Shown in pieces: positions 12,619 to 37,046 of a DNA stretch of 64,000 nt (position 1 is its first letter; each line of letters starts with the position of its first letter). The notes beneath the pieces were generated by a model. The model was not told the origin of the DNA. It did not search any database and saw nothing but the letters and a program-made list of their open reading frames with translations. Made by a program: the position numbers and the translations under genes. This DNA comes from a virus. The stretch lies in IMG/VR virus record IMGVR_UViG_3300047333_000104, positions 1 through 64,000 of that record; one strand, 5' to 3'.

Positions 12619-13106
12619 GCGAGGTACACGACTATCACATCCGACCGCGGCCCTCGGAGACGAGTTTTACGGTCAAGGTCGATGCGGCGGGAAGCCACAT
12701 CGTGGTTGATACGTTCTCCAATTTCAATGGCGTGTCGCATCGACTCTTTCGCGACGTATTGGATGCGCGAGAGAAGGCGACACGCGAAGCATTGATTGCT
12801 CTGGGCTGGACGCCGCCCGGCAATGGCTGGCGGCCAATCCCGAAAGATCCTTATGCTCGGTTCGAAGGCACGGGGGTGTTGTGGGTCGCGATGTTCCGCG
12901 CGGACGATCCATCCACCACGTATGTTATCCATGCGCGGGCAGGGGAGCACGGCGCGCTATTCTTTACCGATGGCAGCATGCTTTCGGTAAACGAGCAAGG
13001 GTGGGTGCCCTTCGCTTGGAGAGTCGCGGACGCGCCCGCGAGAGACGACGAGGCATTCCCGCCCATGTGGACGGACTATCTCACGGAGTCACACCCGTGT
13101 CCGTAA
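12615..13106 (+). CDS. Hypothetical protein
   Basis: A 163-residue protein starting MSEVHDYHIRPRP, with GGAGAAGAAAG before the start. It is rich in beta-type segments and ends CP. Its end overlaps the start of the methyltransferase gene by 10 bases. No family recognised. Confidence 0.5.
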   Translation: MSEVHDYHIRPRPSETSFTVKVDAAGSHIVVDTFSNFNGVSHRLFRDVLDAREKATREALIALGWTPPGNGWRPIPKDPYARFEGTGVLWVAMFRADDPSTTYVIHARAGEHGALFFTDGSMLSVNEQGWVPFAWRVADAPARDDEAFPPMWTDYLTESHPCP

Positions 13107-13618
13107 TCCCTCACGAAACCCTCCTCTCCCTCCGCGAGACCGCCGCAACGACCCCACCCGGCGATATCGTCGAGGTCGGCGTGTACCGCGGCGGCAGTGC
13201 GTCGGTTCTGGCCGAGGTCTCCCGGTCGAAGGGTTGCCGGCTGCATTTGTTCGATACGTTCCTCGGCATGCCGTTCGCAGGCGCCGACGACAAGCACCAG
13301 GTCGGGGACTTCGGTGACACGTCGTTGCGGGCGGTCAGCGAGTTGGTGCCGGATGCGCTTATCTACCCCGGCGTCTTTCCGAGCACGCTGCCGGCGACCT
13401 GGACCGAGCCGTTCCTGGCGTTCGTGCATTGCGACGTTGATCAGTATGAGAGCACGCGGTCGGTCATCGAGCACCTATGGCCGATGCTCGTGCCGGGCGG
13501 GGTCATGTGGTTTGACGATTGCGAGCTGGCCCCGGCGATGCGGGCGATCGAGGAGATGCTGCCGGGCGTTGAGTTGCTCGACGCGCCGGGAGGACGGAGG
13601 TGGGCAAAGCGCGATTGA
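13097..13618 (+). CDS. TylF/MycF-like SAM-dependent methyltransferase
   Basis: A 173-residue protein. The GTG at 13097 follows CGGAGTCA. VEVGVYRGGSA (about 22-32) is the SAM-binding loop, LFDTFLGMP the acidic strand, CDVDQYEST and MWFDDCELAP the metal/substrate residues of the TylF/MycF group, which methylates sugar hydroxyls in macrolide and glycan pathways. The family call is good; a sugar substrate is an inference that fits the other glycan genes in this phage. Confidence 0.8.
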   Translation: MSVIPHETLLSLRETAATTPPGDIVEVGVYRGGSASVLAEVSRSKGCRLHLFDTFLGMPFAGADDKHQVGDFGDTSLRAVSELVPDALIYPGVFPSTLPATWTEPFLAFVHCDVDQYESTRSVIEHLWPMLVPGGVMWFDDCELAPAMRAIEEMLPGVELLDAPGGRRWAKRD

Positions 13619-17898: not shown

Positions 17899-18092
17899 CC
17901 CGCGTTGAACGTTTGCTTGCCGAGTACCCGGCGTTGTCCCGCGAAGAAGCTGAGATGGTCCTCGAGGCGGAGCGGATCGTCGCAAGCCAGGAGCTAGAAC
18001 GTTTGGAGCACGACCTTATCCTTATCACTTTGGAAAACGCTTCTCGCTATGACGCCCCCTTCATAGCGGCGTTGAAGGCGGTAGCCACGTGA
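17895..18092 (+). CDS. Small helical protein preceding the terminase
   Basis: A 65-residue acidic protein, almost entirely helical (REEAEMVLEAERIVASQELERLEHDL). It immediately precedes and overlaps the terminase ATPase gene (GTGA). Position would suit a small packaging partner, but it is far shorter than known small terminases. Confidence 0.45.
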   Translation: MTRVERLLAEYPALSREEAEMVLEAERIVASQELERLEHDLILITLENASRYDAPFIAALKAVAT

Positions 18093-18964
18093 GCGGCCTC
18101 TTGCCGCCAGGCCCGGTCCGCGTTGAGGCGCCCTCGGAGCCGGCGCCGTTCGTCGTACCGGACTTCGCGGCGCGCGGGCGAGCGGTGCTGGAAGAGTACG
18201 TGCGGACGGGAGTGATCCCGTTTACGGCAGACGGCCTCGTCGTCTTCTACAACCTGATGATGGCGGATCGCGGATTCAATTTCCCGCCGCACCTTTTCCC
18301 TGTGGCCATGGCGCTCATGGATGATCGTATTCCGAAGCTCATGATTATCGTGGGACCAGGTAGTGGCAAGTCGAGTCTTCTATCGACGGTTTATCCCGCG
18401 TTCCGTCTCGGCCATGACCCGACTATGACGATCGTTGGCGTATCGGCCGGCGAGGCGCTTGTCCAAGGATTTATGGCCGCTGTGATGGAATGGGTGGAGA
18501 AGTCGAAGACATGGGCGCGGCTATTCCCCCATGTGCGACCCGATAAGGATCTCGGCTGGTCGACTGAGGCGGGCATGTTTGTGACCGGCCGCGCTCCGGG
18601 CGACCCTGATTCCAGTTACGCCGCATTCGGGCTTACCTCGACGAAGCTTACGGGTGTTCACGCAAGACTCATTATCTGCGACGACATCCACAATGAAGAG
18701 AACTCGTCCTCGGCATCCGCTTGCGAAGGGGTGCGATCCAAGTATTATCGGACGGTTCTTGGGCGTGCAGATCCCCGAGGTGCCCGGTTCATTATCGCCG
18801 GCCGGCGCTGGCATGAGGAGGATCTTTACGGCCACCTCGCCAAGAGCGAAGATTGGGTCGTTATGTCTTTGCCGGCGGAGCGCGTCGGTGAGAAGCAGTT
18901 ATATTGGACGGTCGAGGTTCCCGACGGCCTCGTTTGTTGTTTCACTGAAGGACGAAAATCATGA
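18089..18964 (+). CDS. Terminase large subunit, ATPase half (split gene)
   Basis: A 291-residue protein with a GTG start. Walker A is GPGSGKSS (G89-S96, K94) and Walker B LIICDD (194-199) followed by HNEEN. The ATPase motor drives DNA into the prohead. The protein then stops shortly after VVMSLPAERVGEKQLYWTVEVPDGLVCCFTEG, where a normal TerL would continue into the nuclease domain. That domain is encoded separately at 24851-25933. The last codons overlap the start of the inserted peptidase gene by ATGA. Confidence 0.9.
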   Translation: MSGLLPPGPVRVEAPSEPAPFVVPDFAARGRAVLEEYVRTGVIPFTADGLVVFYNLMMADRGFNFPPHLFPVAMALMDDRIPKLMIIVGPGSGKSSLLSTVYPAFRLGHDPTMTIVGVSAGEALVQGFMAAVMEWVEKSKTWARLFPHVRPDKDLGWSTEAGMFVTGRAPGDPDSSYAAFGLTSTKLTGVHARLIICDDIHNEENSSSASACEGVRSKYYRTVLGRADPRGARFIIAGRRWHEEDLYGHLAKSEDWVVMSLPAERVGEKQLYWTVEVPDGLVCCFTEGRKS

Positions 18965-22105: not shown

Positions 22106-22296
22106 CGCCGCGCCCGTTCCTCAGCGTTCTGCGCATAGAAGGCCAACTGCTCGAGGCACTCCTCGATCCGCGTCTGCCGATCCCAGAATTCGACGATAGT
22201 CTCGGAGATTAGCGCGACGACGCGTTGGTCCGCATCGGGTGCGTCCTTATTGGCGAAGAGGTCCGCAAAGCGGGCGGCGAGTTCAGCCCCGGTCAT
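22102..22296 (-). CDS. Small helical protein
   Basis: A 64-residue acidic helical protein (MTGAELAARFADLF) with CAGGAG before the start. It overlaps the end of the GT9 gene and couples to the membrane peptide by ATGA. Unknown function. Confidence 0.5.
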   Translation of the reverse strand: MTGAELAARFADLFANKDAPDADQRVVALISETIVEFWDRQTRIEECLEQLAFYAQNAEERARR

Positions 22297-23149
22297 CGAT
22301 CATCTCCTGAACAGCATCGGCCACGACATCGGGCCGGAACGCATAAATGCAAGCGTCCGTACCATAGCGGCAGGACAGGTTCGTGGCGGGCGCCGGCAGC
22401 GTTTCCAGGCATCCCTGGCACGGCACGTCGGCCTCCATCTCCTTGACGCGCCAGCCGCGCTCACCGTGGCGGTACGGCACGCGGTATTTCGCCCGCACGG
22501 AGGTGAACAGACCGACGATCGGCGTATCGGTCGCCCCGGCGAGATGCAAGAGGGCGCTGTCGCTGCCGAGGAAGCAAAGACTGCTAGCGATCAGGTTCGC
22601 CGTCTCTCTAAGGCTCGTCTGGCCGACCGCCGAGCCCACGAACGGGCTTGTAACCCCGTCCGCTCGGAAGTCGGCCCCGCCGCCGACGAACAGCACGCGG
22701 TACTCCCGCGCGATCAGAAGCGACGACACTTCAACCCAGAAGTCAGCAGGCAGCGATCGGCTCGGCCAGGACCGGGCGGCGTGGATCGTAACGAGGCGGT
22801 CCTGCTCGCGGAGTTCGAACGGAGCAGGCGGATCAATGCCGAAAACGACCCTCTTGTGCTTGTAGTCTCTGGGAGCCCCTGCATATTCGAGATAAGCGTC
22901 CACGACGTGCATCGTCGGTTTGCGCTCATACACGAGGTTGAGGTCGATGACGCTTGTGAACCCGCCGCTCGCTCGGCCAGGCAGCAGAACCGTCGAGACG
23001 TGCGGGTTGTTGAGCAACACTTCGGGGCAGCCGGTCTCAAAGACGATCTCGGCCTCGGGGCCGTACCAGTCGCGGAGGTAGCGCAGGATCGGCGTAGCGC
23101 ACAGAACATCACCCAAGGCACCGGTACGGCGGATTAGGATGCGAGTCAT
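22283..23149 (-). CDS. GT9 (heptosyltransferase-type) glycosyltransferase
   Basis: A 288-residue protein. MTRILIRRTGALGDVLCATPILRYL is the N-terminal GT9 signature (R..GALGD.L...P). The C-terminal domain has FVGGGADF, FLGSDSALLHLAGATDTPIVGLF (key: GSDS...HLA....P.V.LF) and a Cys pair CQGCLE. GT9 enzymes transfer heptose or similar sugars from ADP-sugar donors in LPS assembly. The start follows GAGGGAGTC. In a phage it may modify host LPS or virion glycans. Confidence 0.85.
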   Translation of the reverse strand: MTRILIRRTGALGDVLCATPILRYLRDWYGPEAEIVFETGCPEVLLNNPHVSTVLLPGRASGGFTSVIDLNLVYERKPTMHVVDAYLEYAGAPRDYKHKRVVFGIDPPAPFELREQDRLVTIHAARSWPSRSLPADFWVEVSSLLIAREYRVLFVGGGADFRADGVTSPFVGSAVGQTSLRETANLIASSLCFLGSDSALLHLAGATDTPIVGLFTSVRAKYRVPYRHGERGWRVKEMEADVPCQGCLETLPAPATNLSCRYGTDACIYAFRPDVVADAVQEMIDDRG

Positions 23150-23394
23150 TTTGACTCCCTCACGATACGGTTGATATCGACCGCAACCGGTGGGTGGCCG
23201 GCGGCGACGACGGTCAGTTGGACCTTGGCGCCGAACAGCAGCGCGATCCGCTCGCGCCAAGTTGGCTTCCAGAACGAGATGAAGCTATCGCTGACGCGGA
23301 GCACCGGAAGGCCGAGGCATTTGCCCTGGGACTCGTCCCAACCCTCGGGTGCGCCGAGAACCGCTTGTTGGCCTTTGAAATGGATGGGGTTCAT
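23146..23394 (-). CDS. Conserved small phage protein
   Basis: An 82-residue protein starting MNPIHFKGQQAVLGAPEGWD. The pattern WDE..G.C.GLPV...D...SFWKPTWRERIALLFGA matches a small protein common in phages, function unknown. ATGA overlaps on both sides. Confidence 0.65.
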   Translation of the reverse strand: MNPIHFKGQQAVLGAPEGWDESQGKCLGLPVLRVSDSFISFWKPTWRERIALLFGAKVQLTVVAAGHPPVAVDINRIVRESK

Positions 23395-23590: not shown

Positions 23591-24196
23591 TTAGAACCCC
23601 TTCGGCAGCGCCGAGATATACCCCTCGTGGGCATAGTCAATCGCGATCTCGTGCGTCTCTCCGAGCGCAGCATAAAGGAAGTCGAGATTGCGCTGCTCGG
23701 CACGCAGTGTTTGCGCCCAGTCGGGTAGGGTGCCGTAAGTGAACGGGCCGTCGACATAAATCCGCGCATCATCAATCAGGAAGATGTCGGGTACTCCGGG
23801 CCGTAACGAGCGGATCAATTCGATCTCTCGGGCGAGGGGCAGGCGGAGATCGTCATCGGGCTCAACCGCGGCGTCGTTTGTCGTATAGCCGAGACCGGGG
23901 AAATGCGCGTCAAGCCAGAAGAGGACGGGATCGTCGCGCGATATGCCGCTGCCTAGGAGAACCTGCAGTCCTGCGAGGCTATCGGCCTGAAGGATAAGCA
24001 CCTCTGGGCAGCGCGCGAACCGATCTCGGGCGGCGGCATGGATCTCTTCGATAAGCTCGATCGAGTAGATATTCGGGAAGCCGGCGGCGAGCGCCGCAGC
24101 CACACCTTCGCCCGCTCCGACTCCGGTTTCGACGAAGTGCTTGATACCGTGCGCGGCGCGCAACGCGGCGAGGTCGAAGTGATTGACGATTCCCAT
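23591..24196 (-). CDS. SAM-methyltransferase-fold protein
   Basis: A 201-residue protein. HFVETGVGAGEGVAAAL (about 22-38) is a class I SAM-binding loop, IYSIEL (about 43-48) the following acidic strand, and LFWLDAHFPG (about 91-100) the motif-IV-like strand. The fold is that of small FkbM/TylF-type phage methyltransferases. It overlaps the previous gene by one base (TAATG). Substrate unknown. Confidence 0.7.
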   Translation of the reverse strand: MGIVNHFDLAALRAAHGIKHFVETGVGAGEGVAAALAAGFPNIYSIELIEEIHAAARDRFARCPEVLILQADSLAGLQVLLGSGISRDDPVLFWLDAHFPGLGYTTNDAAVEPDDDLRLPLAREIELIRSLRPGVPDIFLIDDARIYVDGPFTYGTLPDWAQTLRAEQRNLDFLYAALGETHEIAIDYAHEGYISALPKGF

Positions 24197-24765
24197 TAAA
24201 GCCTCCGCAACACGAACTCGATCGACGACTCGACGTTCGGATTGAGCGTCTGGTCGCCCTGCAAACCTTCGACGAAGAAGTCGCGCACTACCACGATCCG
24301 TTCGACCGAAACACCGTCGATCTGGCGCAGCAAATCGAGCAGATTGATCGACCGCGGCGACCAACTCTCCAGCTTGAACACCGTGAAGGTCCATTTGTGG
24401 TCTGCGTTGAACTGAGACGGCCAGAAGCCCTGCTCGTACATATCCTCGTCGGGGACGGTGATGACGAGATGGCCGCCCGGTCGGACGACGTTTATCCAGT
24501 TTTGGAGGGCGACGGCGGGGTCGGTCATGTGCTCAAGGCAATGGGCGGAATGGAGGAAATCATAAGGTGGGGCGCCTTCGAGGTATTGAGCATCCCCGTC
24601 TTCGACGTCCCAGCAGTCAACGTAGGTAATATGAGGGAAAGCCCCCATGTGACGGCCGAGACCGTCTGATCCTGCGCCGACGTCGATCCCCGCGCCGACG
24701 AAATAGCGCGTCTGGAACGCGCCGTCATTGAAACGGCGCTTTGCCGCCTTCGATTGCTCATCCAA
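24196..24765 (-). CDS. Class I SAM-dependent methyltransferase
   Basis: A 189-residue protein with a TTG start behind GAGGAGTCA. GIDVGAGSDGLGRH (about 26-39) is motif I, FLHSAHCLEHMTDP (about 70-83) the post-II/III region and WINVVRPGGHLVITVPDE the conserved RPGG strand, as in Methyltransf_11 enzymes of polysaccharide gene clusters. First gene of the minus-strand operon inserted in the terminase. Confidence 0.8.
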   Translation of the reverse strand: MDEQSKAAKRRFNDGAFQTRYFVGAGIDVGAGSDGLGRHMGAFPHITYVDCWDVEDGDAQYLEGAPPYDFLHSAHCLEHMTDPAVALQNWINVVRPGGHLVITVPDEDMYEQGFWPSQFNADHKWTFTVFKLESWSPRSINLLDLLRQIDGVSVERIVVVRDFFVEGLQGDQTLNPNVESSIEFVLRRL

Positions 24766-24850: not shown

Positions 24851-25933
24851 ATGCAAACGGTTCGCGTCGCATATGGGGAGGACCCAACGGGGCTCGGCTT
24901 CTACTGGCCGCAGAGCGCCCAGAAGCGTGCCGAAATGAACGCGATCAAGCGCGGCGATCCCTCGGCCTACGAGTCGGTCTATCAGTGTCGGCCCGGCAGC
25001 CGTGAAGGCCAGGTCTTTCTCGAATCGGACTTTGTCGAATATATCCCGCCGGTCGGCCTGGAGAACGGCGTGCTCGACGAGAGCATCCGCCGTTTCGTTT
25101 CCCGAGGAACGGTTGTTCAAGCGTGGGACACCGCGTCCTCAGTCGCGGCGCAGTCCGCCTACTCCGTGTGCGTAACCGCGCTTTTGATGCCGTGCAACAA
25201 GTATCATCGCGCCGAGGACCCCGCGGTCTACGGTCCCTGCGACGACCATTACGACGTCCATCTGCTCGACCTCCATAGGGGGCGGTACGCGATCGGCGAT
25301 CTCGTCGGCGCGTTCAAGATGCAGTACCACATCTGGCGGCCGGAACTGATCCTCGTCGAGAAGAAGTCGTCTGGCATCACGCTTGTCCAGACGATGCCCG
25401 CGCTCGGGATGCCCGTTAAAGGGATCGAGCCGGAAGGCGGCAAGCGCGAGCGAGCGACTAGCAACGTCGGCGCCGGTTCCGCGCAGGGTTGGTTCCGTCA
25501 GCACCGGGTGCTTCATCCGAAAGACGCGGACTGGGTCGCACCGTGGAAGCGCGAACTCAAGGATTTCACGGGTAGCGACGAAGGCATCTCAGATCAGGTT
25601 GACGCCTCCGTGCATCTTATCCGCCACGCAATCATGTCCGGCGCGCACACCGCGCTTTTGCCAACGGATTGGAGCCCGGAGCGCGGTACGATGGCCGATT
25701 CGCAGATGGCGATGGGCGAAGGCGGGGTCTACGCGCCGTTCGCTGATCCGCGATTAGAATTACTGAACGCGCTTGACATGCTCGGGTCTATGTCGAACGA
25801 TGCGTTTGAGGGGCTCTGCGGTCGTTGTATCAGCTATTCAGGTGATACCTGCACGCTCCATCGCATGAAGAAGATCGCGTTGGACTCCTGCCTCATGTTC
25901 TCGGACGCAAACCCCGTAAGCTACTATGGGTGA
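24851..25933 (+). CDS. Terminase large subunit, nuclease half (split gene)
   Basis: A 360-residue protein. AYESVYQCRPGSREGQVFLESDF is the usual TerL linker (key: Y...RP....G..F...DF). The RNase-H-like nuclease follows: VVQAWDTASS (D93), LILVEKKSSG (E170) and SDQVDASVHL. It lacks any ATPase domain. A Cys-rich tail (CGRCISYSGDTCTLH, about 320-334) may bind zinc. No SD is visible before the ATG; an in-frame TAG lies 18 bases upstream. It must assemble with the 18089-18964 product to package DNA. Confidence 0.9.
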   Translation: MQTVRVAYGEDPTGLGFYWPQSAQKRAEMNAIKRGDPSAYESVYQCRPGSREGQVFLESDFVEYIPPVGLENGVLDESIRRFVSRGTVVQAWDTASSVAAQSAYSVCVTALLMPCNKYHRAEDPAVYGPCDDHYDVHLLDLHRGRYAIGDLVGAFKMQYHIWRPELILVEKKSSGITLVQTMPALGMPVKGIEPEGGKRERATSNVGAGSAQGWFRQHRVLHPKDADWVAPWKRELKDFTGSDEGISDQVDASVHLIRHAIMSGAHTALLPTDWSPERGTMADSQMAMGEGGVYAPFADPRLELLNALDMLGSMSNDAFEGLCGRCISYSGDTCTLHRMKKIALDSCLMFSDANPVSYYG

Positions 25934-27605
25934 CTTCGACATCAACGAAGGTGCGCCAGTCAAAGGGCGCGTCATGCTGCCATCTGCCGGGAGTGCCGCG
26001 ATGGGCGCGGGCATGTCAGGCATGGTCAGCGACGTCGAGAGCTACGCTGCGATCTTCGAGACTCAGTACGCCAGAGCGATGGACGCGAGTGACGCAGCAG
26101 CGAAAAGTATTGCCGTCCCACCAGGTATGCTGTCGTTCGGCAAGATCAGCTACATGCCGGAGAGTTACAATTCCGGCGTGCTTCAGTGGCCGGGAATCGC
26201 CCCGGAGGCCCTCCGCAAGACCGTCCGCGAGAACCTCGCGCCGCAGCTCATCATCGGTATGCGTTGCGACGACGTCATTCGCTTCTCGCAGTATTCGACG
26301 CACCCCTGGAAGCCAGGCTGGCGCATCGAGCCGATGAATTCCGAAGCGGCCCCCAGCGTGTCCGACAAAAAGGACATTCAGGAGGTCATTCGGTTCCTGA
26401 GTAACTCCAGCATCGACACGACCTACGCGCAAGCTAACGAGCGGGACGAGCGAAAGCTGACGAATTTTCAGCGGTTCTTGTCGGCGATGACGCGGGATAC
26501 GCTCACGTTCGACGGGATCGCGGTTTGGAAAGACGTCGACCAAAGCGGGAAGGTCAAAGCGTATAGCTTGTTGCCGGCCGGGAACATCCGGCTCGTCGGC
26601 CCGGACGGGTACCTCGGGAACAAAGACATCGCTTATGTCGCCGTGGACGAAGGCAACAAGATCATCCATGAGTTCACACGAGAGGAACTGACGTTCTACA
26701 TTCGCAACCCTCGGCCGGATGCAGAGTCGTTAGGCTACGGGTATCCGGAAATCGAAATAGCGATGCGTCTGGTGCAAGGAATACAGAACGCAATTGACCT
26801 AAATTGTGACACCTTTAACAAAAATTCCACACCCAACGGTATCCTCGTCCTCTCCGGTTCGTCCGTTACGCAGCGTCAACTTGATCTGCTCAACCGCATG
26901 TGGACGAACCTCAAGAAGGGCATCACGAAAGCGTGGGCTCTCCCGGTGATGGGCCTCGCGGACGGCAGCAAGCTCGAAGTCGTCGATATGACCCGGCTCA
27001 AGGGCAACGAGGTCTACTACCGCGACTTTCTCAATATGTTCTTCGGCGCGTTTGCTACTGTTTACCGGTTCCCCGTCAAGCGGATCGGCTACAAGATCAG
27101 CGGCCAGGGCCGGGACAACGAGCCGAACCAAGACGCCGCGACCGAGATGGACGATAGCGACGATCCGGGTCTTGCTCCGTTGCTCATCCACATCGAGAAC
27201 GTTATCAACGAGTACCTCGTCTGGACGCGCTGGCCGCATCTGCGTTTCACCTTCATCGGCAAGAACCCGAAAGAGGAGATGCGCGGCTTCGAGTTCCGTA
27301 AGAACGCCATGACTTTTGGGGAAGCCCGTTCGCTCGGCGATCTCGACGACCTCGAGAACGAGGCGAAGGGCGAAGACGAGAAGCTGATCGCCCGCATCAT
27401 GAACATGGCGCCGCTCGACCCGAATATGTCCGGCGTGTTCCAATCCGTGGCTGCCGCGTTTATCGCCGCCAAGTTTGGCGCGAAACCGGAGGGCGGCGAC
27501 AAGGGCAACACGATGACCAGCAAGATCGATCCGGCTCGATCGGCCGATCATGGAGCCGAAGCTGGAGTGCGGCGGGATTCAGCCGCGGAAACGAAGAAGG
27601 AATAG
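25926..27605 (+). CDS. Portal protein
   Basis: A 559-residue protein directly after the terminase with an 8-base overlap. The length, position and portal-type sequence (MSFGKISYMPESY...WKPGWRIEP..., LGYGYPEIEIAMRLVQGIQNAIDLN, NEYLVWTRWPHLRFTF) fit a dodecameric portal that forms the DNA entry vertex. The C-terminus is charged and flexible and ends AETKKE. Confidence 0.85.
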   Translation: MGDFDINEGAPVKGRVMLPSAGSAAMGAGMSGMVSDVESYAAIFETQYARAMDASDAAAKSIAVPPGMLSFGKISYMPESYNSGVLQWPGIAPEALRKTVRENLAPQLIIGMRCDDVIRFSQYSTHPWKPGWRIEPMNSEAAPSVSDKKDIQEVIRFLSNSSIDTTYAQANERDERKLTNFQRFLSAMTRDTLTFDGIAVWKDVDQSGKVKAYSLLPAGNIRLVGPDGYLGNKDIAYVAVDEGNKIIHEFTREELTFYIRNPRPDAESLGYGYPEIEIAMRLVQGIQNAIDLNCDTFNKNSTPNGILVLSGSSVTQRQLDLLNRMWTNLKKGITKAWALPVMGLADGSKLEVVDMTRLKGNEVYYRDFLNMFFGAFATVYRFPVKRIGYKISGQGRDNEPNQDAATEMDDSDDPGLAPLLIHIENVINEYLVWTRWPHLRFTFIGKNPKEEMRGFEFRKNAMTFGEARSLGDLDDLENEAKGEDEKLIARIMNMAPLDPNMSGVFQSVAAAFIAAKFGAKPEGGDKGNTMTSKIDPARSADHGAEAGVRRDSAAETKKE

Positions 27606-27846
27606 CCGTGCGGATTGACACGGAGTCAGTGGGGTCGATCGGCTACCGCACCTCGGGCGGGAAAGTGCAATTGGTCGTACAAGACGCGTGGGGCCGCTAT
27701 ATCCAGGTAGCGGAGGGCGCCGTATCTGAAGGGGCTTTCCAGTTCGTCTACCCCGTTGGCATCCGGCAGGCGAAATTGGAGGGGAAGACGCCGGAGGGGT
27801 TTGATGCCCGACCTGCCCCCGCTGAGACGAAGAAGGAATAGCCGTG
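27591..27846. repeat. Duplicated 20-bp gene junction
   Basis: The same 20 bases (27591-27610 and 27827-27846) encode the C-terminal ETKKE, a TAG stop, two bases and a GTG start. They end two successive genes and begin the next ones. Confidence 0.9.
27608..27841 (+). CDS. Small protein following the portal
   Basis: A 77-residue protein with a GTG start behind AAGGAAT. Beta-rich N-terminal 55 residues; it ends with the same AETKKE as the portal. Function unknown; the duplicated junction suggests it was inserted by recombination. Confidence 0.5.
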   Translation: MRIDTESVGSIGYRTSGGKVQLVVQDAWGRYIQVAEGAVSEGAFQFVYPVGIRQAKLEGKTPEGFDARPAPAETKKE

Positions 27847-28087: not shown

Positions 28088-31000
28088 ATGTCGAAACTTC
28101 AGTTTACCCGTCCCCCTTACGTCCTAGCCCACGCTGGCGATCAGGCAGGATGCGGTTGGTACAGAATCCAGTCGCCCCTCGAAACCCTGATCAAGAAGGG
28201 TTTGATCGCCGGCCGCATCGAGTATTCGTTTCTCTCCGACGACATGCTCCGCGCGTTGAAACCCGATATCGTGGTGTGGCAGCGCCAGTGCGAGGACTAC
28301 CAGGTCGACGCGATGCGCCGATATAAAGAGGTTCTTCCGGATCTCTATATGGTCTTCGAGATCGACGATGCGCTCTCCAAAGTGCCTGACGCATCATACC
28401 ACAAGGCGTTCATGCCGCCGAACATCGACGCCAATCTCGCCAATGCGATTTCGCTTTGCGACGTGGTCACCGTTACGACGGCGGACCTCGCGGCGCACAT
28501 GAAAACGGTCAGTGGCGGCGATACGCCGATCCGTATCGTGCCGAACATGCTGGCGCAGGAAGACGTCTACAAAGCTGACGCAGCCCGCGTGGCCGCCCGC
28601 AAGTTCCGTTCGAAGCTGCGCGTCGGCTGGGGCGGCGGCATCGGCCATACGGGGGATCTTGCCATCCTCAACCGGGCTATCGCGGAACTTGGCGACGAGG
28701 TGGAATGGGCATGGGCCGGCATGCAGCCCGAGATGCCGGAGGGTACGATCTCGAAATTCTACGGGGCGGTCGCACCGAAGGAATATCTCAGCCTGCTCGC
28801 GTCGATGGATCTCGACCTCATGATCGCCCCGATCGAGGACAACGAATTTAATCGGTGCAAGTCGAACCTGCGACTGATCGAGGGCGGCGCCTGCGGCTAC
28901 CCCGTGATCGCCAGCCCGGTCGCGCCCTACCTCAACGCTCCGGTGTTCGCCTATGCCGCCGGCCCCGAGGATTGGGCCGCTAAGATCCGCGAGTTCGCTG
29001 CTCTTTCCGCCGAGGAGCGGGGCACCTGGTCTTCCAAAATGCGGAACTGGGTCGACCGTAAATGGATTCTCGAAGAGAACGCCGAGGCTCGCGCCAAAGC
29101 GTGGCTTCCGCCGAAATCCGAACTCTTCTATCCGAGCCCGAACGTCGTCGGCAAGATCAGCGGCAGCACGATCATCGTGAGCCGCACGCTCGAAGAGGCG
29201 GCGCTTGCCCCCTATAAGGTCGTCAAGACCCTGAAGGACGCGCTGACCAGCAAGGGCCAGTCCGACATTCTTTACGTCCGGCCGAACGTTGTCATGACCG
29301 TCGATCAGATCGAAAGGCTGACGAAGCAAGAGAACTTCGATATCGCTACGATATCTACGATGAGCAATGACGGCGGTCCGTGCTCCTTTCCGCAGATCGG
29401 CCAATTTACCATGCTCGATCCCGGCGCAGCGGACGCGCTCGATCAATACTGCGCGCAGCGGCCCGGTACGGCGGCACTGACCGCTTGCGCCGGACCGGCG
29501 GTTTTGCTCAAGCGCACCGCGCTTAATGCGATCGGTTGGCCCGACGAGGACGAAGTTCTCGATCTTGCGCTGATCGAATGGTCGGCAGCGGCGGCCGGTC
29601 GAGGGTTCCGCAACATCGTCGATTTCAGCGTGTATGTCGGATGCCCCTCTCCGACGACTTTTTCGCAAGATATCGCGCACAACATGGCGATGCGGATTAG
29701 CATGCGCTGGCCGCAAGTTCAGACCGAGCATGAGAAAATCGCGGAAGCGCGCAACTTCCTCGAACTTCGTTTTCACCGCGAGTCCTACCGCTACTTGCCG
29801 CCGCAGAACCAAGGCGACTACGCGACCTGGAGTCAGGTCATGGACACGCTCGGCCCGCGCTCGCTCGCGGCCATGAACGAGTGGGACGCGGCCGACATCC
29901 GTCCCCTGGTCGTCGCGCATTCTTATGCCAAGGCGCTCACGCTTCCCGAGACCGGCGATTGGGTGCTGATGCACAAGATGGGCAGCGTCCTTCCCGAGCA
30001 GGCGATCCCGCTTTTCGCGGACTTCATCGCCAAGAACCCCGAAGCGAAAGTGGTCTACGCTGATCACGATTACCTTGATCAGAACGGCGAGCGCCAGGGC
30101 CACGATTTTAAGCCGAACTTCGACCTGCATCTGCTCATGGGCCGCGACTACGTTACCCCCGTGTTTGCTGCCCGACGCGCCGATCTCGAACAGATCTCGA
30201 CGCTCGGTAACGTTCCGGCGGAATGCCTACTTTACGAATTCGTTTTGAGCGCGGTCGCCCAGTTCGGTCGACAGAGCGTCGTTCATCTTCCCTCCATTCT
30301 CGCGCACCTTCCGGTGCCCAGAGTCGACGACCTGGCGGAAGCGGCGCGGATCAAATCGGAGATGGCCACCAAGTTCGCCGCACATATCGGCATGGACGCC
30401 CAGGTCAAGCCGCATGCGATCGGCCTCGGCTTGATGGATGTGAGCTTCGGTCGCGGCAAAACACTCGACATCCCGCACGTCTCGATCATCATTCCGACGA
30501 AGAATCGGATCGACATGATCGCCCCATGTCTTGCGACCGTCTTGTCTTTGACGACCTACCCGAGTTTCGAGGTATTGGTCATCGACAACGGCAGCGACAA
30601 GCAGGATGTGCTCGACTATTTCGCGGGGGTTGCGGACAAGCGCGTTCGGATCATCCAGCATGACGTGCCGTTCAACTGGTCTGAGATCAACAATTTCGCG
30701 GTCAAGCAGGCCAAGGGCAGCATCTTGTGCTTTCTCAACGACGATACCCGCGTTTCGTCCGGAGATTGGCTGACCGAGATGGTCGGCGCCGCGCTCTACG
30801 AGGACGTGGGCGCGGTCGGCGCTCGGCTGGTCTACCCGAACGGGACGCTCCAGCATATCGGCGTCGTCGCACGAGGCGGCATCTGCGGCCACATCCACAA
30901 GGGGCTTGCGGCCAATCTGATCGGGTACCACGGCATCGCTATCCTGCCGCACGAGAACGCCGCTCAGACCGGAGCATGCATGGTCGTTCGCCGCGAAATA

Positions 31001-31897
31001 TACGACCGGATCGGCGGTTTCGACGAATCTTTTTCGAATAACTACAACGACGTGGCGTTTTGCCTAGAAGCGCGCCGTCTCGGCCTGGTTAACGTTTATG
31101 CGCCGCGCGCCGAGTTGCAGCATTTCGAGGGCGTATCGCGAGTGTCGGGCATGACGTCCGAGGGGCAGAAGCTCCTGCATGAGGAGGGCGTCTTGCTCGG
31201 CGATAAGTATCCCGAGGACGATCCCTACTGGAACCGCAATCTCGTATTCGCCGGCCAGAAGGGCGGCATGTACGTCGTCGGCACCAATTACGATATGCTC
31301 AATTGGATGCCGCCCGTGTACCCATGGGCCGGCGAACGCGGCGAACCGCGCCGTGTTCTCCTGGTCGGTCCGACTGAAACGGCGCTCTCCGAACGTCAGG
31401 ACGGTTGCGCGGTCTTCACACTCGGCATCCGCGGCAACGAAGTGCGGATCGTCGATCCGCCGATGGAGAACAGCAAGACGTTCGATCTTCGTTACCCGCA
31501 GGAGATGGTCGAGTCTCTCGCCGCCCTCGGGATCGACGAGGTTATCCTGACTTCGGCAGCCGGCGTCCCGTTGATCGTCTTATCATTCTTGAGCCGCCTC
31601 GGGCTTCCCGTCACCTATCGGCCGATCGACGCCGAGATGGTATGCCCGCGCCTCGACCTGACCGCTTCCGGCTCGCCGTGCGACCGGGGATGGGCGACAG
31701 GCGGCTGCCAATCGTGCCTTGACGAACACGGGTCGGCGAATGGTTACGTGAACCGCATCTCGTGGATGAGCGAATGGGTTCGGTTCACCAGCAACCCCTC
31801 GGTAACGATCGATCTCTCGGAGGTCGAAGAGGAACGGTTTGCCGACGCGATCATGGAAGTGTTTCGGCCGGACGAATTAGTGCGGGCGGCCGAATGA
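28088..31897 (+). CDS. Giant multi-domain glycosyltransferase (GT4 + GT2 modules)
   Basis: A 1269-residue protein between portal and protease genes. Residues about 1-360 are GT4-like (GCGWYRIQSPLE; NRCKSNLRLIEGGACGYPVI). About 360-790 look like a degenerate GT-A module (VVYADHDYLDQNGE). A full GT2 domain starts near 798 (VSIIIPTKNRID) with the metal motif NDDT (D885, D886) and ends with GGFDESFSNNYNDVAFCLEA. The last ~150 residues are GT-B-like with a Cys cluster. Such proteins build polysaccharide chains. No membrane span, so it is probably cytoplasmic, acting on virion proteins or host glycans. Confidence 0.85.
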   Translation: MSKLQFTRPPYVLAHAGDQAGCGWYRIQSPLETLIKKGLIAGRIEYSFLSDDMLRALKPDIVVWQRQCEDYQVDAMRRYKEVLPDLYMVFEIDDALSKVPDASYHKAFMPPNIDANLANAISLCDVVTVTTADLAAHMKTVSGGDTPIRIVPNMLAQEDVYKADAARVAARKFRSKLRVGWGGGIGHTGDLAILNRAIAELGDEVEWAWAGMQPEMPEGTISKFYGAVAPKEYLSLLASMDLDLMIAPIEDNEFNRCKSNLRLIEGGACGYPVIASPVAPYLNAPVFAYAAGPEDWAAKIREFAALSAEERGTWSSKMRNWVDRKWILEENAEARAKAWLPPKSELFYPSPNVVGKISGSTIIVSRTLEEAALAPYKVVKTLKDALTSKGQSDILYVRPNVVMTVDQIERLTKQENFDIATISTMSNDGGPCSFPQIGQFTMLDPGAADALDQYCAQRPGTAALTACAGPAVLLKRTALNAIGWPDEDEVLDLALIEWSAAAAGRGFRNIVDFSVYVGCPSPTTFSQDIAHNMAMRISMRWPQVQTEHEKIAEARNFLELRFHRESYRYLPPQNQGDYATWSQVMDTLGPRSLAAMNEWDAADIRPLVVAHSYAKALTLPETGDWVLMHKMGSVLPEQAIPLFADFIAKNPEAKVVYADHDYLDQNGERQGHDFKPNFDLHLLMGRDYVTPVFAARRADLEQISTLGNVPAECLLYEFVLSAVAQFGRQSVVHLPSILAHLPVPRVDDLAEAARIKSEMATKFAAHIGMDAQVKPHAIGLGLMDVSFGRGKTLDIPHVSIIIPTKNRIDMIAPCLATVLSLTTYPSFEVLVIDNGSDKQDVLDYFAGVADKRVRIIQHDVPFNWSEINNFAVKQAKGSILCFLNDDTRVSSGDWLTEMVGAALYEDVGAVGARLVYPNGTLQHIGVVARGGICGHIHKGLAANLIGYHGIAILPHENAAQTGACMVVRREIYDRIGGFDESFSNNYNDVAFCLEARRLGLVNVYAPRAELQHFEGVSRVSGMTSEGQKLLHEEGVLLGDKYPEDDPYWNRNLVFAGQKGGMYVVGTNYDMLNWMPPVYPWAGERGEPRRVLLVGPTETALSERQDGCAVFTLGIRGNEVRIVDPPMENSKTFDLRYPQEMVESLAALGIDEVILTSAAGVPLIVLSFLSRLGLPVTYRPIDAEMVCPRLDLTASGSPCDRGWATGGCQSCLDEHGSANGYVNRISWMSEWVRFTSNPSVTIDLSEVEEERFADAIMEVFRPDELVRAAE

Positions 31898-32319
31898 GTA
31901 TCGACCGCATCTACGGGCCTCTCGAGCATTACGACTATGGCGTCCTCGACAGGCATTGTCTCTGCGATCTGTGTCTGGAATGGCGGGCCGCGCAGCGTAC
32001 CTGGCACGAGTACCAAGACAATAAGCGGAAAAATCCGCAGGATCGAATTGCTCACCGCTCCACCTATCTCGCCGCAGTATCGCGGCGAGACCTCTATTGC
32101 GAGTCGTCTTGGCACGCATCGGAGAATAGGTGGGGCGAGGACTACATGGACTGGATCTCTCGGCAGATTACCGAGACAGCAGAGCGATCGAAATACTGGT
32201 GGCGGACGGAGGGACTTTCCTCTCCATTGCTTTACTGGTTTCGGCAGTTCAACGTCTATCGTCGTTCGAACGCTACGGCGGCTTTCGACCCTCCTCTGAT
32301 CGACCTGCGCGGCGCGTAG
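31894..32319 (+). CDS. Hypothetical protein with CxxC
   Basis: A 141-residue protein coupled to the glycosyltransferase by ATGA. HCLCDLCLEWRAAQRTW near the N-terminus gives a possible metal knuckle. The rest is Trp/Tyr/Arg rich. Function unknown. Confidence 0.5.
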   Translation: MSIDRIYGPLEHYDYGVLDRHCLCDLCLEWRAAQRTWHEYQDNKRKNPQDRIAHRSTYLAAVSRRDLYCESSWHASENRWGEDYMDWISRQITETAERSKYWWRTEGLSSPLLYWFRQFNVYRRSNATAAFDPPLIDLRGA

Positions 32320-32344
32320 CATCTTATGTAACAGCCGGAGCGCG

Positions 32345-32373
32345 TGATATCCTCCACGCAACGGAGGATATCA
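32345..32373 (+). promoter_or_regulatory. RBS-sequestering hairpin
   Basis: A perfect 11-bp inverted repeat: TGATATCCTCC (32345-32355), a 7-base loop ACGCAAC and GGAGGATATCA (32363-32373). The right arm contains the GGAGG ribosome-binding site and ends at the base before the ATG at 32374. Folded, it would hide the site. Confidence 0.85.
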
Positions 32374-32964
32374 ATGCTTGAAGCGCGCTGGGCAAAAGGG
32401 GTTCTGACGATCACGTCTCTCGCGGCGGACCCTGCATCTGCGGCGATCGAGATTGTCGGTGCGGACGGCAGCCGTGTTCCGTTCGTCAAAGCGTTTCCTG
32501 CCGGCGCGGCGCACATTAAGATCGCGATGGAGCGCCCGCATAGCGTATTTTTATCCTCAATTGCGGCGAAAAGCGTTCCGGTACGGACACTTAAACCGAT
32601 CGACGATACGTACTCGCACCCGCCGTTTCCCTACGACCCACAAGCATTCGACAAACTTCGCCCGGACCAAGTGCCTCGGTTCCTGGGAGCCTTGACCGAT
32701 CCAGATCGTCTCGAACATCGCCGCATCAGGCTTAACGACCTTGTCGCGATGCAGAACCGCGTCGATCGTGGGAAAGTCGAATCGGCCCGAACTCGCGAGG
32801 GCGGCAGACCGCCGGTCGTCGTTCGGATGGATGGACGATACTATATTGCGGACGGGCACCATCGGATGGCAGCCGCCTATCTAAATGGCGATCAAGATCA
32901 CGAATGTCTGTTCCTCGACCTTACCCCCGTGAACAACGCAATGAAGGGCCGCAGCCATGCGTGA
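32374..32964 (+). CDS. ParB/Srx-like domain protein
   Basis: A 196-residue protein. The C-terminal half has NRVDRGKVESAR, PPVVVRMDGRYYIADGHHRMAAAYL (key: ADGHHR at about 169-174), the ParB-type motif that in ParB/Srx proteins binds nucleotide and often hydrolyses it. It is located just before the protease and its last 8 bases overlap that gene. Translation is probably controlled by the hairpin covering its ribosome-binding site. The role in morphogenesis is unknown. Confidence 0.75.
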   Translation: MLEARWAKGVLTITSLAADPASAAIEIVGADGSRVPFVKAFPAGAAHIKIAMERPHSVFLSSIAAKSVPVRTLKPIDDTYSHPPFPYDPQAFDKLRPDQVPRFLGALTDPDRLEHRRIRLNDLVAMQNRVDRGKVESARTREGGRPPVVVRMDGRYYIADGHHRMAAAYLNGDQDHECLFLDLTPVNNAMKGRSHA

Positions 32965-33859
32965 AGCCGTACTCATCTCGATCCCCACGATCATCAAAGC
33001 GGTGTCTGACGACACGGGGCGGCGCCTGATCTCCGTGGAGGCCAGCAACGAGGCCGTCGACAGCGAGGGCGACGTCATCCTGCAGTCTGCACTGATGGGC
33101 TCGGCGGCGTCCTTCGTGAAGACGGGTCACATCGACATCGACCACATCTCGGAACTGGGCGACCGTCTCGGCATCGCTAACCCGACGTCCTACATCATCG
33201 GCCGCCCGCTCGAAGTGAAAGACCTCGGCGGCAAACGGACTGGCGTCGTTGCGGAAATCTTCCGTTCGCATGACGGTAAGGTTGACCCGGCAGCGCATCG
33301 ATACGACTCGTTCTGGGACAGCCTGCATACCGATCCCCCAGTAATGTGGCGGTCCTCGATCTACGGTTTCCCGCTTGAAGGTCAGACCGAAGATCACCGC
33401 GACAGAGGCGGCAATAAGCGCTTTGTCGTGAAGGGGATCGACTGGCGTTCTTTGGCCATGACCCGTAATCCGATCAACACTGATATCCGCGGTTACGCCA
33501 AGATCGTTACGGCCAAAGCCGCCATCGCTGAGATGATCAAGAGCGGATCATTCGGCCCCGGGGTAGGGCAGTCTCCGTTCGATCAGACCAATCCGTTTGG
33601 TGTGGAGACGGTCAACTCCGGCTCGGCGCCGGGGGCATACGGGGCATCGCACACGATGGCGCATCCCCGTAACATGGATGACCTCGTCGGTCAGCACGCG
33701 CGCCACATCTCTAAGGACTGCCCTTGGTCGGGAGGCGCGGACACGCGGTCGGGATTTAAAGCCCACTTTGAAAAATGCTGCGGGTCGCATCCGGACGTCG
33801 CGGACATGATGGCGCACGCGTTGATGTACCACCGGCTACTCGAAAAGAAGCGGGCGTAA
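32957..33859 (+). CDS. Prohead maturation protease
   Basis: A 300-residue protein located before the scaffold and capsid genes. VEASNEAVDSEGDVILQSAL begins the protease fold; HIDIDHIS (about 52-59) supplies the catalytic-type His, and a later LAMTRNPIN is the characteristic block of phage head proteases. The C-terminal part has a Cys/His cluster (CPWSGG...HFEKCCGSH). It would cleave scaffold and capsid during maturation. Confidence 0.75.
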   Translation: MREAVLISIPTIIKAVSDDTGRRLISVEASNEAVDSEGDVILQSALMGSAASFVKTGHIDIDHISELGDRLGIANPTSYIIGRPLEVKDLGGKRTGVVAEIFRSHDGKVDPAAHRYDSFWDSLHTDPPVMWRSSIYGFPLEGQTEDHRDRGGNKRFVVKGIDWRSLAMTRNPINTDIRGYAKIVTAKAAIAEMIKSGSFGPGVGQSPFDQTNPFGVETVNSGSAPGAYGASHTMAHPRNMDDLVGQHARHISKDCPWSGGADTRSGFKAHFEKCCGSHPDVADMMAHALMYHRLLEKKRA

Positions 33860-33944
33860 CATACCTACTAGACGCCGAAAATAACGCTGTGTGATTATAG
33901 AGCGCAATTATCCACCTTCGGCGCTCCTGAAGAGAGGTCACGTC

Positions 33945-35168
33945 ATGAATCCCAAACAGATCCTTGAGGCTATCGGCATCCTGGCTAAGGCTCCCGCCGC
34001 CGAAGTCGCCAAAATTCTGCAGGACAGCGCCCTCGACAAGGCCGCGCAGGATCTCACCCACTCGGAGATGGTCGAAAGCCGGTGGGAAGAAGGTCATATG
34101 CATGAGCATATCTCGCGTGAGGTCATTCGTACCGGCCCCGAGCAAAAGGCTTCGGGCGACGGCGCCGAGAAGATGATCCGCGACTATTCGAATGTCGCGA
34201 CCCAGCAGGCCGGCATCATGCAGCAGGCCGAATCGCTGGCGCGCTTGATCGCTCCGATCGCCGCCTCCTCGAAAGCCCAGACCGCCGCGGTCACCGCGCT
34301 CATCGAGAACGTCAAGTCGCTCAATGTAACGCTCGCCGCGCTCGTTACGGCCAAAGCCGAAGGCGAAGACAAGATGGTCGAAGAAGACGACGAGGACGAA
34401 AAGGAAACCAAGGAGATGGCCGCTGAGAAGGCCAAGTCCCTGGTCGCTCGCGCCAAGATCCTGCTCACCAAAGCCAAGAAGGCCGAGGGTGACGCCATGA
34501 TGGTCGAAGACGACGAGGAAGAAGAGAAAGCTTGCAAGAAGAAAGCCAAGGCTTTCCGCAAGCAGGCCGCTGTTCTCCTCGGCAAAGCCCGCACCGCCGC
34601 CTTCGTGGCCGGTGATCGCGAGACCCGCAAATCGATCGCCCAGATCGCCGCCAAGTCCGACATTACCGTCGTCGAGGACGACGAAGATGAGGATGACGAC
34701 GAGAAGGAGAAGGCGAAAGCCGCCGCCGAGAAAGCCAAGGGCCATGACGCCGCCGGCAACCAAGCCGATTTCTCGAACAAGGACGGCAATCAGGACAGCA
34801 CCGCCGTCAAGGCAGTGAGCGAGATGTCCGGCAAGGTCGAAGAGGCGCTGAAAGGTTTTGGCATGCTCTCGATGGAACTGAAAGACATGATGAACGTCGT
34901 GTCCGGTCGTTCGAAGGGCACGGGCGCCGTTCCCGAGTTCACCAAGTCTGCCGTCGATCCGACGCTTGCGCTGGTCAACAAGATCGAAGAACTCGAAGAC
35001 GCCGGACAATTGAGCGACACGGATGCGTTCGCCGCCCGCGACATTGTCTCGAAGATGACCGCCGCTCGTGCCGGCCAGTTGGACGCTTCGATCGTTCATG
35101 ATCGGATCGCCAAGTCCACGCTGCCTGTGCAGATGTTGTTCAAGGCCGCTACCACGGCTGCCGCCTAA
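33945..35168 (+). CDS. Scaffold-like acidic coiled-coil protein
   Basis: A 407-residue protein starting MNPKQILEAIG behind AGAGAGG. It is extremely rich in Glu, Asp, Lys and Ala, with runs such as EEDDEDEKE and DDEDEDDDEKE and long coiled-coil segments. The position, between protease and major capsid protein, and composition fit an internal scaffold that shapes the prohead and is later cleaved. Confidence 0.7.
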   Translation: MNPKQILEAIGILAKAPAAEVAKILQDSALDKAAQDLTHSEMVESRWEEGHMHEHISREVIRTGPEQKASGDGAEKMIRDYSNVATQQAGIMQQAESLARLIAPIAASSKAQTAAVTALIENVKSLNVTLAALVTAKAEGEDKMVEEDDEDEKETKEMAAEKAKSLVARAKILLTKAKKAEGDAMMVEDDEEEEKACKKKAKAFRKQAAVLLGKARTAAFVAGDRETRKSIAQIAAKSDITVVEDDEDEDDDEKEKAKAAAEKAKGHDAAGNQADFSNKDGNQDSTAVKAVSEMSGKVEEALKGFGMLSMELKDMMNVVSGRSKGTGAVPEFTKSAVDPTLALVNKIEELEDAGQLSDTDAFAARDIVSKMTAARAGQLDASIVHDRIAKSTLPVQMLFKAATTAAA

Positions 35169-35199: not shown

Positions 35200-36990
35200 A
35201 TGCCCGATGGTAACTTCAGCCACATGGTGCCCAAGGCGGAACGCGATTTCGCGATCTCCAAAGCCGTCGATACGATGGCTCGGTTCGTCAACCCGAATGA
35301 CCCGCTGCGCGACTTCTATCTGAGCGTCGCGGGCTATCGTCCGGAACTGACCGAGCAGATCCAGGCGAAGACGGCGCCGGAGATCGCCAAGGCGAATGCG
35401 ATCGCCAAGATCTTCCGTTCCAACACCCGCGCCGCTCGGTTCGCGACCAAGAAGGAACTCGTCGAGAAGGGCGCCCTCTCGAAGGCGCAGCTTGACGTCG
35501 GTTCGCTCACCAACTTCGCGCAGATTACCGGCGGCCAGTCGCTCGGCTATGTCTCGCTCGATACTCAGATGGCCCGCGGCACGGTGCGCCCAAACAGCTT
35601 CACGCTGTATCAGGCGCTCCACAAGTCGGCCGCTTTCCAGGTCGTCGACTACTGGCCGTACGCTTCCGATACCGGCGGCGGTCTGCCCGGCACGGCATTC
35701 AGCGGCTTCAGCAACGTGTCCTCGGGCACCCTGTCGACCTCGGCCGGCATCTACTCGCTGAACAACATCACGCTGAAGCTGGCCGTCAACGGTCGCGCGA
35801 TCACCACCGCCCTGGCCGCCCAGAATTCCTTCGTGGATGTCTCGGCCCAGGAGAACATCAACGCGGCGCTGACGGTGCTGGAATCGGTCAACTGGTCCTG
35901 CTACTGGGGCAACCCTGCGCTCTACCCGAACCAGTTCCAGGGTATCGCGGGCGTCATTCCCGCCACCAACATCTTCGACTACCAGGCGTTCTACAACAAC
36001 TTCGCCACGGCGCAAGGCTGGAGCGCCGCGCAGGCGATGTTCAACCTGATCTACGAAGCCTCGGCGAAGATCACCGGCTACCGTCAGTACGGTCGCATCA
36101 CGCACGCTTTCATGTCCCCGGTTTGCGCCGGCAGCTTGCAGGGCCTCGTGACCACGCTGCTGAACAACATCACCAACAACATCACGCCCGCCCAAGAACG
36201 TCTGCACGGCGTGATCGTCGATGGCGATCTGCAGGGCATCCGGACCCGCTTCGGCGAGATCCAGTTCCCGATCGACTTCTACATCACCGCTCGTGACAAG
36301 CCGGCCCAGACCGTCGTGTACGGCAACGGCACGAACGCCGCGTTCACCAGCAGCCCGACTCCCCCGACGTCCGTCGCCGCCGCCCTGGTTACGGGCGTGG
36401 TTTCGGGGTCCGCGTGGACGTCCGCCTATGTCGCCAGCAGCGGTATTTACAGCTACGCGGTCGCCGGCTGCGATCAGCTGATGAACGAATCGTACCTGAC
36501 CTTCGTGTCCTCGGGCGGCGTCGCCGCTTCGGGTCTGGCGGTCTCCGGCGTCACCGTCGCCAGCGGCGCCTACCAGCTGACGATTACCCCGGCGGACACC
36601 TCGTGCCAGGCGTTCCGCGTTTACCGCAGCGGCCTCGGCTACGCTCCGGTTGGTTCGGGCAACGCGAACCCCGCTTCATACCGCTACATCGGTTCGGTGC
36701 TGGCGTCGGGTTCGTCTCCCGTCACCTTCACGGACCTGAACACGTACATCCCCGGCAGCGAGACGGTCTTCCTGCTCGATCTCGACGAACAAGACAATGC
36801 GATCGATTTCCGCTTCCTGCTGCCGCTGACGCGCATAGAGCTGTTCGCTCAGTCGCTATACATGCCCTGGGCCGTAGCAGAAATTGGTAGCGTAAGAGTT
36901 CGCATCCCCAAGTTCAATGGGTATGTGAAGAACTATGTTCCGGATTCGACGGACTTCAATCCCTTAGCTCCGAACGCTCTCGCGACCTAA
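35200..36990 (+). CDS. Major capsid protein with Ig/FN3-like insertion
   Basis: A 596-residue protein, first after the scaffold, with AGAGGATTTG before the start and a strong terminator after it. Residues about 1-380 and 515-596 look like an HK97-type shell protein (GSLTNFAQITGGQSLGYVSL; DFRFLLPLTRIELFAQSLYMPW). Residues about 385-515 are an inserted beta domain with the repeating Gly/Ser/Val and SGIYSYAVAGCD...FRVYRSG pattern of fibronectin-III or Ig modules, likely exposed on the capsid. The gene has the highest-quality codon use in the region. Confidence 0.85.
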   Translation: MPDGNFSHMVPKAERDFAISKAVDTMARFVNPNDPLRDFYLSVAGYRPELTEQIQAKTAPEIAKANAIAKIFRSNTRAARFATKKELVEKGALSKAQLDVGSLTNFAQITGGQSLGYVSLDTQMARGTVRPNSFTLYQALHKSAAFQVVDYWPYASDTGGGLPGTAFSGFSNVSSGTLSTSAGIYSLNNITLKLAVNGRAITTALAAQNSFVDVSAQENINAALTVLESVNWSCYWGNPALYPNQFQGIAGVIPATNIFDYQAFYNNFATAQGWSAAQAMFNLIYEASAKITGYRQYGRITHAFMSPVCAGSLQGLVTTLLNNITNNITPAQERLHGVIVDGDLQGIRTRFGEIQFPIDFYITARDKPAQTVVYGNGTNAAFTSSPTPPTSVAAALVTGVVSGSAWTSAYVASSGIYSYAVAGCDQLMNESYLTFVSSGGVAASGLAVSGVTVASGAYQLTITPADTSCQAFRVYRSGLGYAPVGSGNANPASYRYIGSVLASGSSPVTFTDLNTYIPGSETVFLLDLDEQDNAIDFRFLLPLTRIELFAQSLYMPWAVAEIGSVRVRIPKFNGYVKNYVPDSTDFNPLAPNALAT

Positions 36991-37014: not shown

Positions 37015-37046
37015 AAAGGCCCGCTACGTAGCGGGCCTTTTCTTTT
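37015..37046 (+). terminator. Rho-independent terminator after the capsid gene
   Basis: A perfect 13-bp inverted repeat AAAGGCCCGCTAC/GTAGCGGGCCTTT (37015-37040) followed by TCTTTT. It lies 25 bases after the capsid stop and separates head genes from the homing endonuclease. Confidence 0.95.

Follow-up and report, generated by a model that had tools for sequence, protein, structure and literature searches.

Phage-encoded glycosyltransferases (GTs) have been linked in mycobacteriophages to glycans on capsid and tail-tube subunits, according to the passages of PMC12619734 and PMC11256854 that cite Freeman 2023, and in mycobacteriophage Maravista the GTs are encoded near the genome end (PMC11256854). 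In the chlorovirus PBCV-1, A111/114R, a multidomain GT whose three GT domains, each about 300 amino acids long, are putatively active, takes part in the synthesis of the capsid-protein glycan (PMC7826918). Here we describe a gene from the uncultivated, myovirus-like virus record IMGVR_UViG_3300047333_000104 (87,337 bases), of which the first 64,000 nucleotides form the window. Judged from its sequence, the gene, here called bigGT, is a multidomain glycosyltransferase encoded inside the head operon. We favor, with moderate confidence, the explanation that sugars supplied by the host are assembled into a glycan carried by a virion protein, probably that of the capsid.

A predicted glycosyltransferase gene within a phage head operon

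An initial annotation had placed an open reading frame (ORF) of 1,269 residues between a portal and a protease gene, and this description held: the frame is open, the portal is backed both by PHROGs and by a profile built from isolated relatives, and the protease is backed mainly by such a profile (Table 1). bigGT is tightly packed within a run of same-strand genes leading from the portal to the major capsid protein (MCP); its ATG sits 1 nucleotide past the point where a small ORF upstream terminates, and at the other end its stop codon shares bases with the start codon of the next gene (ATGA at 31894). GC content at third codon positions (GC3) is equal in bigGT (0.771) and the portal gene (0.768).

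Scans of viral contigs yielded relatives of bigGT on 11 contigs, all of them metagenomic, with products 34-46% identical to the window protein. Ten are full length or nearly so (L011-L014 and L019-L024) and one (L002) is truncated; L002 ends inside the GT gene and L022 begins inside it. L012 and L014 share the same GT sequence and L021 and L022 have nearly the same one, so that the relatives represent about nine or ten independent lineages. No relatives were recovered by a single-sequence portal scan of viral contigs or by a full-protein genome scan, a tblastn search of isolated phages with the TerL nuclease gene gave no match, and the isolated phages yielded no cultivated member of the clade. 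To the extent that each contig covers the region, the order portal-bigGT-(small gene)-protease-scaffold-MCP is common to the window and its relatives, portal and GT being separated by small genes at most. bigGT is single-copy across the clade, and among nine distinct genomes its pairwise identity correlates with that of the portal (r = 0.970), the MCP (r = 0.918), and the protease (r = 0.863; Mantel p <= 0.0004). Its divergence thus tracks that of these three proteins, and this comparative evidence marks bigGT as a core gene that an as yet undescribed phage clade inherits vertically.

The initial annotation had called a position in a head operon very unusual. This is borne out by comparison with isolated phages that have related portals and capsids (Bordetella phage PHB04, Morganella phage Mecenats66, Pseudomonas phages Touem01 and Dolphis, Aeromonas phage ST4, and Yersinia phage fHe-Yen8-01), none of which has an annotated GT in the slot between portal and protease; within the clade, on the other hand, the position is the rule.

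Modular organization of bigGT

The chain had been described as having three parts. All three kinds of part that it named (GT4-like, GT-A-like and degenerate, GT2 with intact motifs) were recovered, but the number of modules is at least five: a GT4-type N terminus, two degenerate GT-A-like modules, the GT2 domain, and a variable tail (Table 1). The GT4-like assignment of module 1 is supported by a match to the phage glycosyltransferase family phrog_7162 (4.3e-38; residues 16-336, profile positions 8-302 of 309) and by its predicted GT-B fold. The AlphaFold2 model of residues 1-560, built with 44 sequences, is confident (pLDDT 91.9), and its best PDB matches are GT4-type GT-B enzymes, namely BshA, MshA, HepE, PglA, and sucrose-phosphate synthase. 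A G-rich loop, GWGGGIGH, and a donor-site-like motif, CKSNLRLIE, are conserved in this module. In the EX7E donor motif of GT4 enzymes, E265 is kept in nearly all members (it is D in L023), and the first position is occupied by Cys257. Since Cys257 is invariant across 44 aligned relatives, it is, as far as the alignment tells, a family trait.

Module 2 has an alpha/beta topology in the AlphaFold2 model and a weak hhalign profile match to the GT2 domain of bigGT itself (E 5e-4, probability 31). Its catalytic motifs have been lost, EWS replacing the acidic base region, and model and sequence together make residues 345-545 a probable second piece of degenerate GT-A-like character. Module 3 gave no match to the GT2 domain profile. 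Its DXD position reads MHKMG in the window clade and DDT in several members of the sister clade, and a similar piece also precedes the GT2 domain in bacterial tandem enzymes; sequence pattern and co-occurrence with GT2 in these bacterial relatives thus point to a GT-A-like identity for residues 560-790.

The GT2 domain is the sole strong domain that Pfam finds in bigGT (PF00535, Glycos_transf_2; residues 799-975, E 7.8e-22, 78.4 bits against a cut-off of 23.3, profile positions 1-167 of 168). NDDT occupies residues 884-887, so that the earlier numbering of D885 and D886 was correct; NDD (residues 884-886) is encoded at 30737-30745 and D988 at 31049-31051. The absence of an intact donor site from every domain, which the initial annotation had named as pointing to a structural role, was not observed: NDD and D988 are invariant in all nine of the aligned family members that reach the GT2 region. 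Structure prediction of the segments, also proposed there, was less successful for residues 545-1269 than for the N-terminal part (mean pLDDT 67, with only 10 sequences), although much of the GT2 part is confident. The PDB matches of the GT2 part are K4 chondroitin polymerase, PcManGT, WrtF, and polypeptide GalNAc-transferases, by structure and in agreement with a profile search. The Cys-rich tail is clade specific: its Cys motif occurs only in the window clade, and the tail is absent or shortened in the sister clade; a Cys-rich tail is thereby ruled out as a defining part of bigGT.

Within the family, mean pairwise identity reaches 48% in module 1 and 52% in the GT2 module, compared with 32% in module 2, 31% in module 3, and 27-35% in the tail. 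Conservation is thus highest in the GT4 and GT2 modules, and selection is therefore strongest on the modules with catalytic motifs. This pattern suggests that catalysis by bigGT is probably under selection. A purely structural protein with dead active sites is disfavored by the invariant GT2 motifs and by the GT modules being the best conserved.

A proposed role in virion glycosylation

A GT that glycosylates the virion would be expected to be encoded among structural genes and conserved with them, and bigGT is both. In the mechanism that we propose, a soluble, cytosolic chain would be expressed late and made together with the head proteins. The GT4 module would draw on a nucleotide sugar of the host to start or lengthen a sugar chain, and the GT2 module would add the next sugar. 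The two GT-A-like modules that have degenerated would, like the tail, serve as spacers or acceptor-holding surfaces. A GT9 protein and methyltransferases encoded elsewhere in the record would, where present, extend and O-methylate the glycan. The sugar donors would come from the host, because none of the nucleotide-sugar enzyme types searched for (NTP_transferase and SDR epimerase) was found in the record. The likely benefit would be shielding or a changed surface chemistry of the particle.

By its abundance and a Ser/Thr-rich stretch, the MCP, whose gene lies in the same operon, is the leading candidate acceptor. In this stretch, around residues 386-521, Ser and Thr make up 21-27%, compared with 18-19% in relatives that lack the GT. 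Several points weigh against virion glycosylation. The Ser/Thr enrichment is modest, could be phylogenetic, and is weak evidence; the glycosylated virions and their acceptor are predictions; and for most of the solved enzymes matched by the GT2 and GT4 modules the substrates are polysaccharides or small molecules. The typical target of GT9 enzymes is lipopolysaccharide (LPS), and neither the GT9 nor the TylF-type gene was found in all records, some of which are fragments.

If virion glycosylation is correct, this phage clade would carry sugar decoration in its core head-building program and not as an accessory, by means of one multimodule enzyme in which two modules still bear their motifs and two others are worn out. 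The clade would then offer a way to find out whether sugar-coated phage particles are widespread beyond the mycobacteriophages, and whether a head protein can be replaced by a glycan.

Alternative explanations

bigGT might instead remodel the host surface, acting on the LPS O-chain or an exopolysaccharide, for example, to block superinfection or to release progeny from the receptor. Among cellular proteins, those most closely related to the GT2 tandem are large GTs from the bacteria Rubrivivax, Belnapia, Siccirubricoccus, and Hydrogenophilus, some of which adjoin other GTs or GT-methyltransferase fusions, and the GT9 protein of the record resembles LPS heptosyltransferases. The initial annotation similarly had compared bigGT to bacterial enzymes that polymerize or cap O-antigen chains. 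An O-antigen role found no support: the gene is locked in the head operon throughout the clade, no tyrosine integrase was found in the record, and lipid-carrier, flippase, and acyltransferase genes were not recognized among the scanned proteins. Nor was a Gtr-type partner present among the scanned neighbors, serine recombinases and membrane partners having had no dedicated search. We regard host surface remodeling as unlikely.

Glycosylation of phage DNA bases, as a hypermodification against restriction, has precedents: virus-encoded GTs can hypermodify DNA, according to the part of PMC12619734 that cites Pyle 2024, and in YerA41 the thymidine probably bears an oligosaccharide (PMC9023294). 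A C5-methylase-like gene is present in the record, and one relative has a Mom-family DNA modification gene in the gap between its TerL genes (L014:4784-5446). However, no thymidylate-synthase-type enzyme was found in the record by a search whose control worked, and a head-operon placement and a multi-GT chain would not be expected of such an enzyme. A search of the record for TET/JBP proteins gave no match, its control being likewise silent. Modification of DNA is, on balance, very improbable.

The slot itself suggests another role. In the isolated relatives it holds a conserved Mu F-like minor head protein of 363-388 amino acids, which in Yersinia phage fHe-Yen8-01 is annotated as particle associated; additional cargo genes are sometimes present too. 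Profiles of these isolated relatives detect the portal, protease, and MCP in all ten GT-phage loci and the adaptor in eight, whereas the minor head protein profile matched in 0 of 10, and a search of whole GT-phage records, made without a positive control, found no minor head protein. The scaffold was likewise undetected by these profiles in the GT-phage loci, and fast divergence could therefore hide the minor head protein as well. Thus, in terms of detectable genes, the GT phages appear to lack a minor head protein and to carry the GT in the corresponding slot, which may be replacement or coincidence. bigGT could, accordingly, be a component of the virion or of head assembly that has taken over from the minor head protein its slot and perhaps also its role. 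There is little to recommend this, given that conservation peaks in the modules with catalytic motifs and that the loss of one gene and the gain of another may be unrelated. Homology between the two proteins was considered and rejected, no sequence relation having been found. The chance is similarly slim that, within the virion, the GT occupies the place of the lost minor head protein close to or at the portal and attaches sugars as an enzyme that is particle-borne or ejected, in which case a metabolic enzyme would have been turned into a head component.

Finally, that bigGT is a passenger (moron) gene which lacks a fixed role and came from a bacterium by recent capture is barely credible: phages often carry GTs as cargo, the GT2 tandem has bacterial relatives, and in some isolated relatives this interval holds other, unrelated genes, but recent capture is ruled out by a single-copy, syntenic gene that is co-inherited and co-diverges with its neighbors across the clade and matches them in composition, including GC3.

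Neighboring genes and other features of the record

Features of the record are collected in Table 1. The terminator-like hairpin downstream of the MCP gene is a candidate end of the head operon, in a region where the count of terminator-like sites is not above shuffle expectation. GT9 (PF01075) is present in 7 of 12 records, a TylF-type match (PF05711) was found in 4 of the 11 relatives as well, and the probable methyltransferase with no Pfam match has homologues in L019-L021.

Table 1. bigGT, its modules, and other features of the window
Feature	Position	Strand	Basis or remark
bigGT, multidomain glycosyltransferase, 1,269 aa	28088..31897	+	Open frame; Pfam, PHROGs, and relatives
Module 1, GT-B/GT4-type domain, residues 1-345	28088..29122	+	phrog_7162, AlphaFold2, PDB matches
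Module 2, degenerate GT-A-like, residues 345-545	29120..29722	+	AlphaFold2 topology, weak hhalign match
Module 3, degenerate GT-A-like, residues 560-790	29765..30457	+	Sequence pattern
Module 4, intact-motif GT2 domain, residues 797-1016	30476..31135	+	PF00535
Module 5, variable tail, residues 1060-1269	31265..31894	+	Alignment; AlphaFold2 confidence mixed
Portal protein	25926..27605	+	phrog_15361 2.5e-22; profile of isolated relatives 2e-49
Small ORF, 77 aa, GTG start, between portal and bigGT	27608..27841	+	Sequence
Small ORF, 80 aa, ends 1 nt ahead of bigGT start codon	27844..28086	+	Sequence
Gene overlapping bigGT stop (ATGA)	31894..32319	+	Relatives in 8 other clade contigs
ParB-like-domain protein	32344..32964	+	Pfam/PHROGs; not visibly conserved in relatives
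Head maturation protease	32957..33859	+	Mainly isolated-relative protease profile 3e-32; weak phrog_1028 3.6e-5
Probable scaffold	33891..35168	+	Position only; no family match
Major capsid protein (MCP)	35200..36990	+	phrog_752 3.4e-36; profile of isolated relatives
Terminator-like hairpin, 11-bp stem	37015..37040	+	Strongest in region, 3' of MCP
TylF-type sugar O-methyltransferase	12881..13618	+	PF05711 1.1e-15
GT9, heptosyltransferase-like	22283..23260	-	PF01075 6.2e-14; between two TerL genes
Probable S-adenosylmethionine (SAM) methyltransferase, real start near residue 66	23591..24394	-	SAM-binding pattern by eye; no Pfam match
SAM methyltransferase	24196..24765	-	PF13489 1.4e-11; in TerL gap

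TerL is split at the boundary between its ATPase and nuclease parts into two genes (18089-18964 and 24851-25933), with sugar-related and other genes in the interval, which is also variable in L002, L013, and L014; a 571-residue DUF4214-domain protein (18961-20676) adjoins the first of the two. An HNH/endonuclease VII-like homing endonuclease gene follows the MCP gene (37149-38834), its relatives in L019 and L021 lying on the opposite strand. The portal ORF of L014 (6638-9475; the same protein in L012) encodes 945 amino acids with a LAGLIDADG match, probably a portal-gene intein. Elsewhere, the window contains a homologue of Thg1, the tRNA-His guanylyltransferase (288-1106; Pfam 4e-28), and L005 (10-1767) encodes a primase-polymerase-like protein with an NrS-1 helix-bundle domain and a DUF5906/VapE-like part.

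Comparison with known systems

The stand-alone GT4s of phrog_7162, found, for example, in L025, in Streptomyces phage Zuko (gp5), and in phAPEC8-like phages, are homologous to module 1 (about 22-33% identity), and a donor-site-like motif, F-N-x-C-K-S-N, is common to the 44 aligned GT4 sequences. Unlike the multimodule bigGT, these proteins are single-domain and vary in position. The most similar, at 29% identity, is that of L025, whose gene lies between the TerL-portal genes and the MCP gene (L025:4605-13221). The terminase, portal, and MCP of L025 fall in other PHROGs than those of the window, suggesting that L025 belongs to a different phage lineage and that a GT4 was placed in its head operon independently. 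In Zuko the gene lies just upstream of the terminase gene and adjoins a sugar epimerase gene. These two cases further qualify the supposed rarity of the position. Taken as a whole, however, the GT4 family has no fixed link to head genes, because its members in L026 and L033 adjoin replication or repair genes.

Among cellular proteins, a 1,612-amino-acid protein encoded in L099, from a Hydrogenophilus metagenome-assembled genome, resembles bigGT in combining the GT2 tandem with a GT4 domain, which is 33% identical to the N terminus of bigGT, but here the GT4 domain is at the C terminus and the gene is cellular, with no head operon. Bacterial multi-GT enzymes of the Myxococcus RfbC type may be similar to bigGT as well.

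With the mycobacteriophages, the bigGT phages would share virion glycosylation as a proposed working principle. Compared with the GTs of Maravista, bigGT differs in being one 1,269-residue multimodule chain encoded inside a myovirus-like head operon. A111/114R, too, is one virus-encoded chain with several GT domains; it belongs to a eukaryotic algal virus, and its likeness to bigGT is one of architecture.

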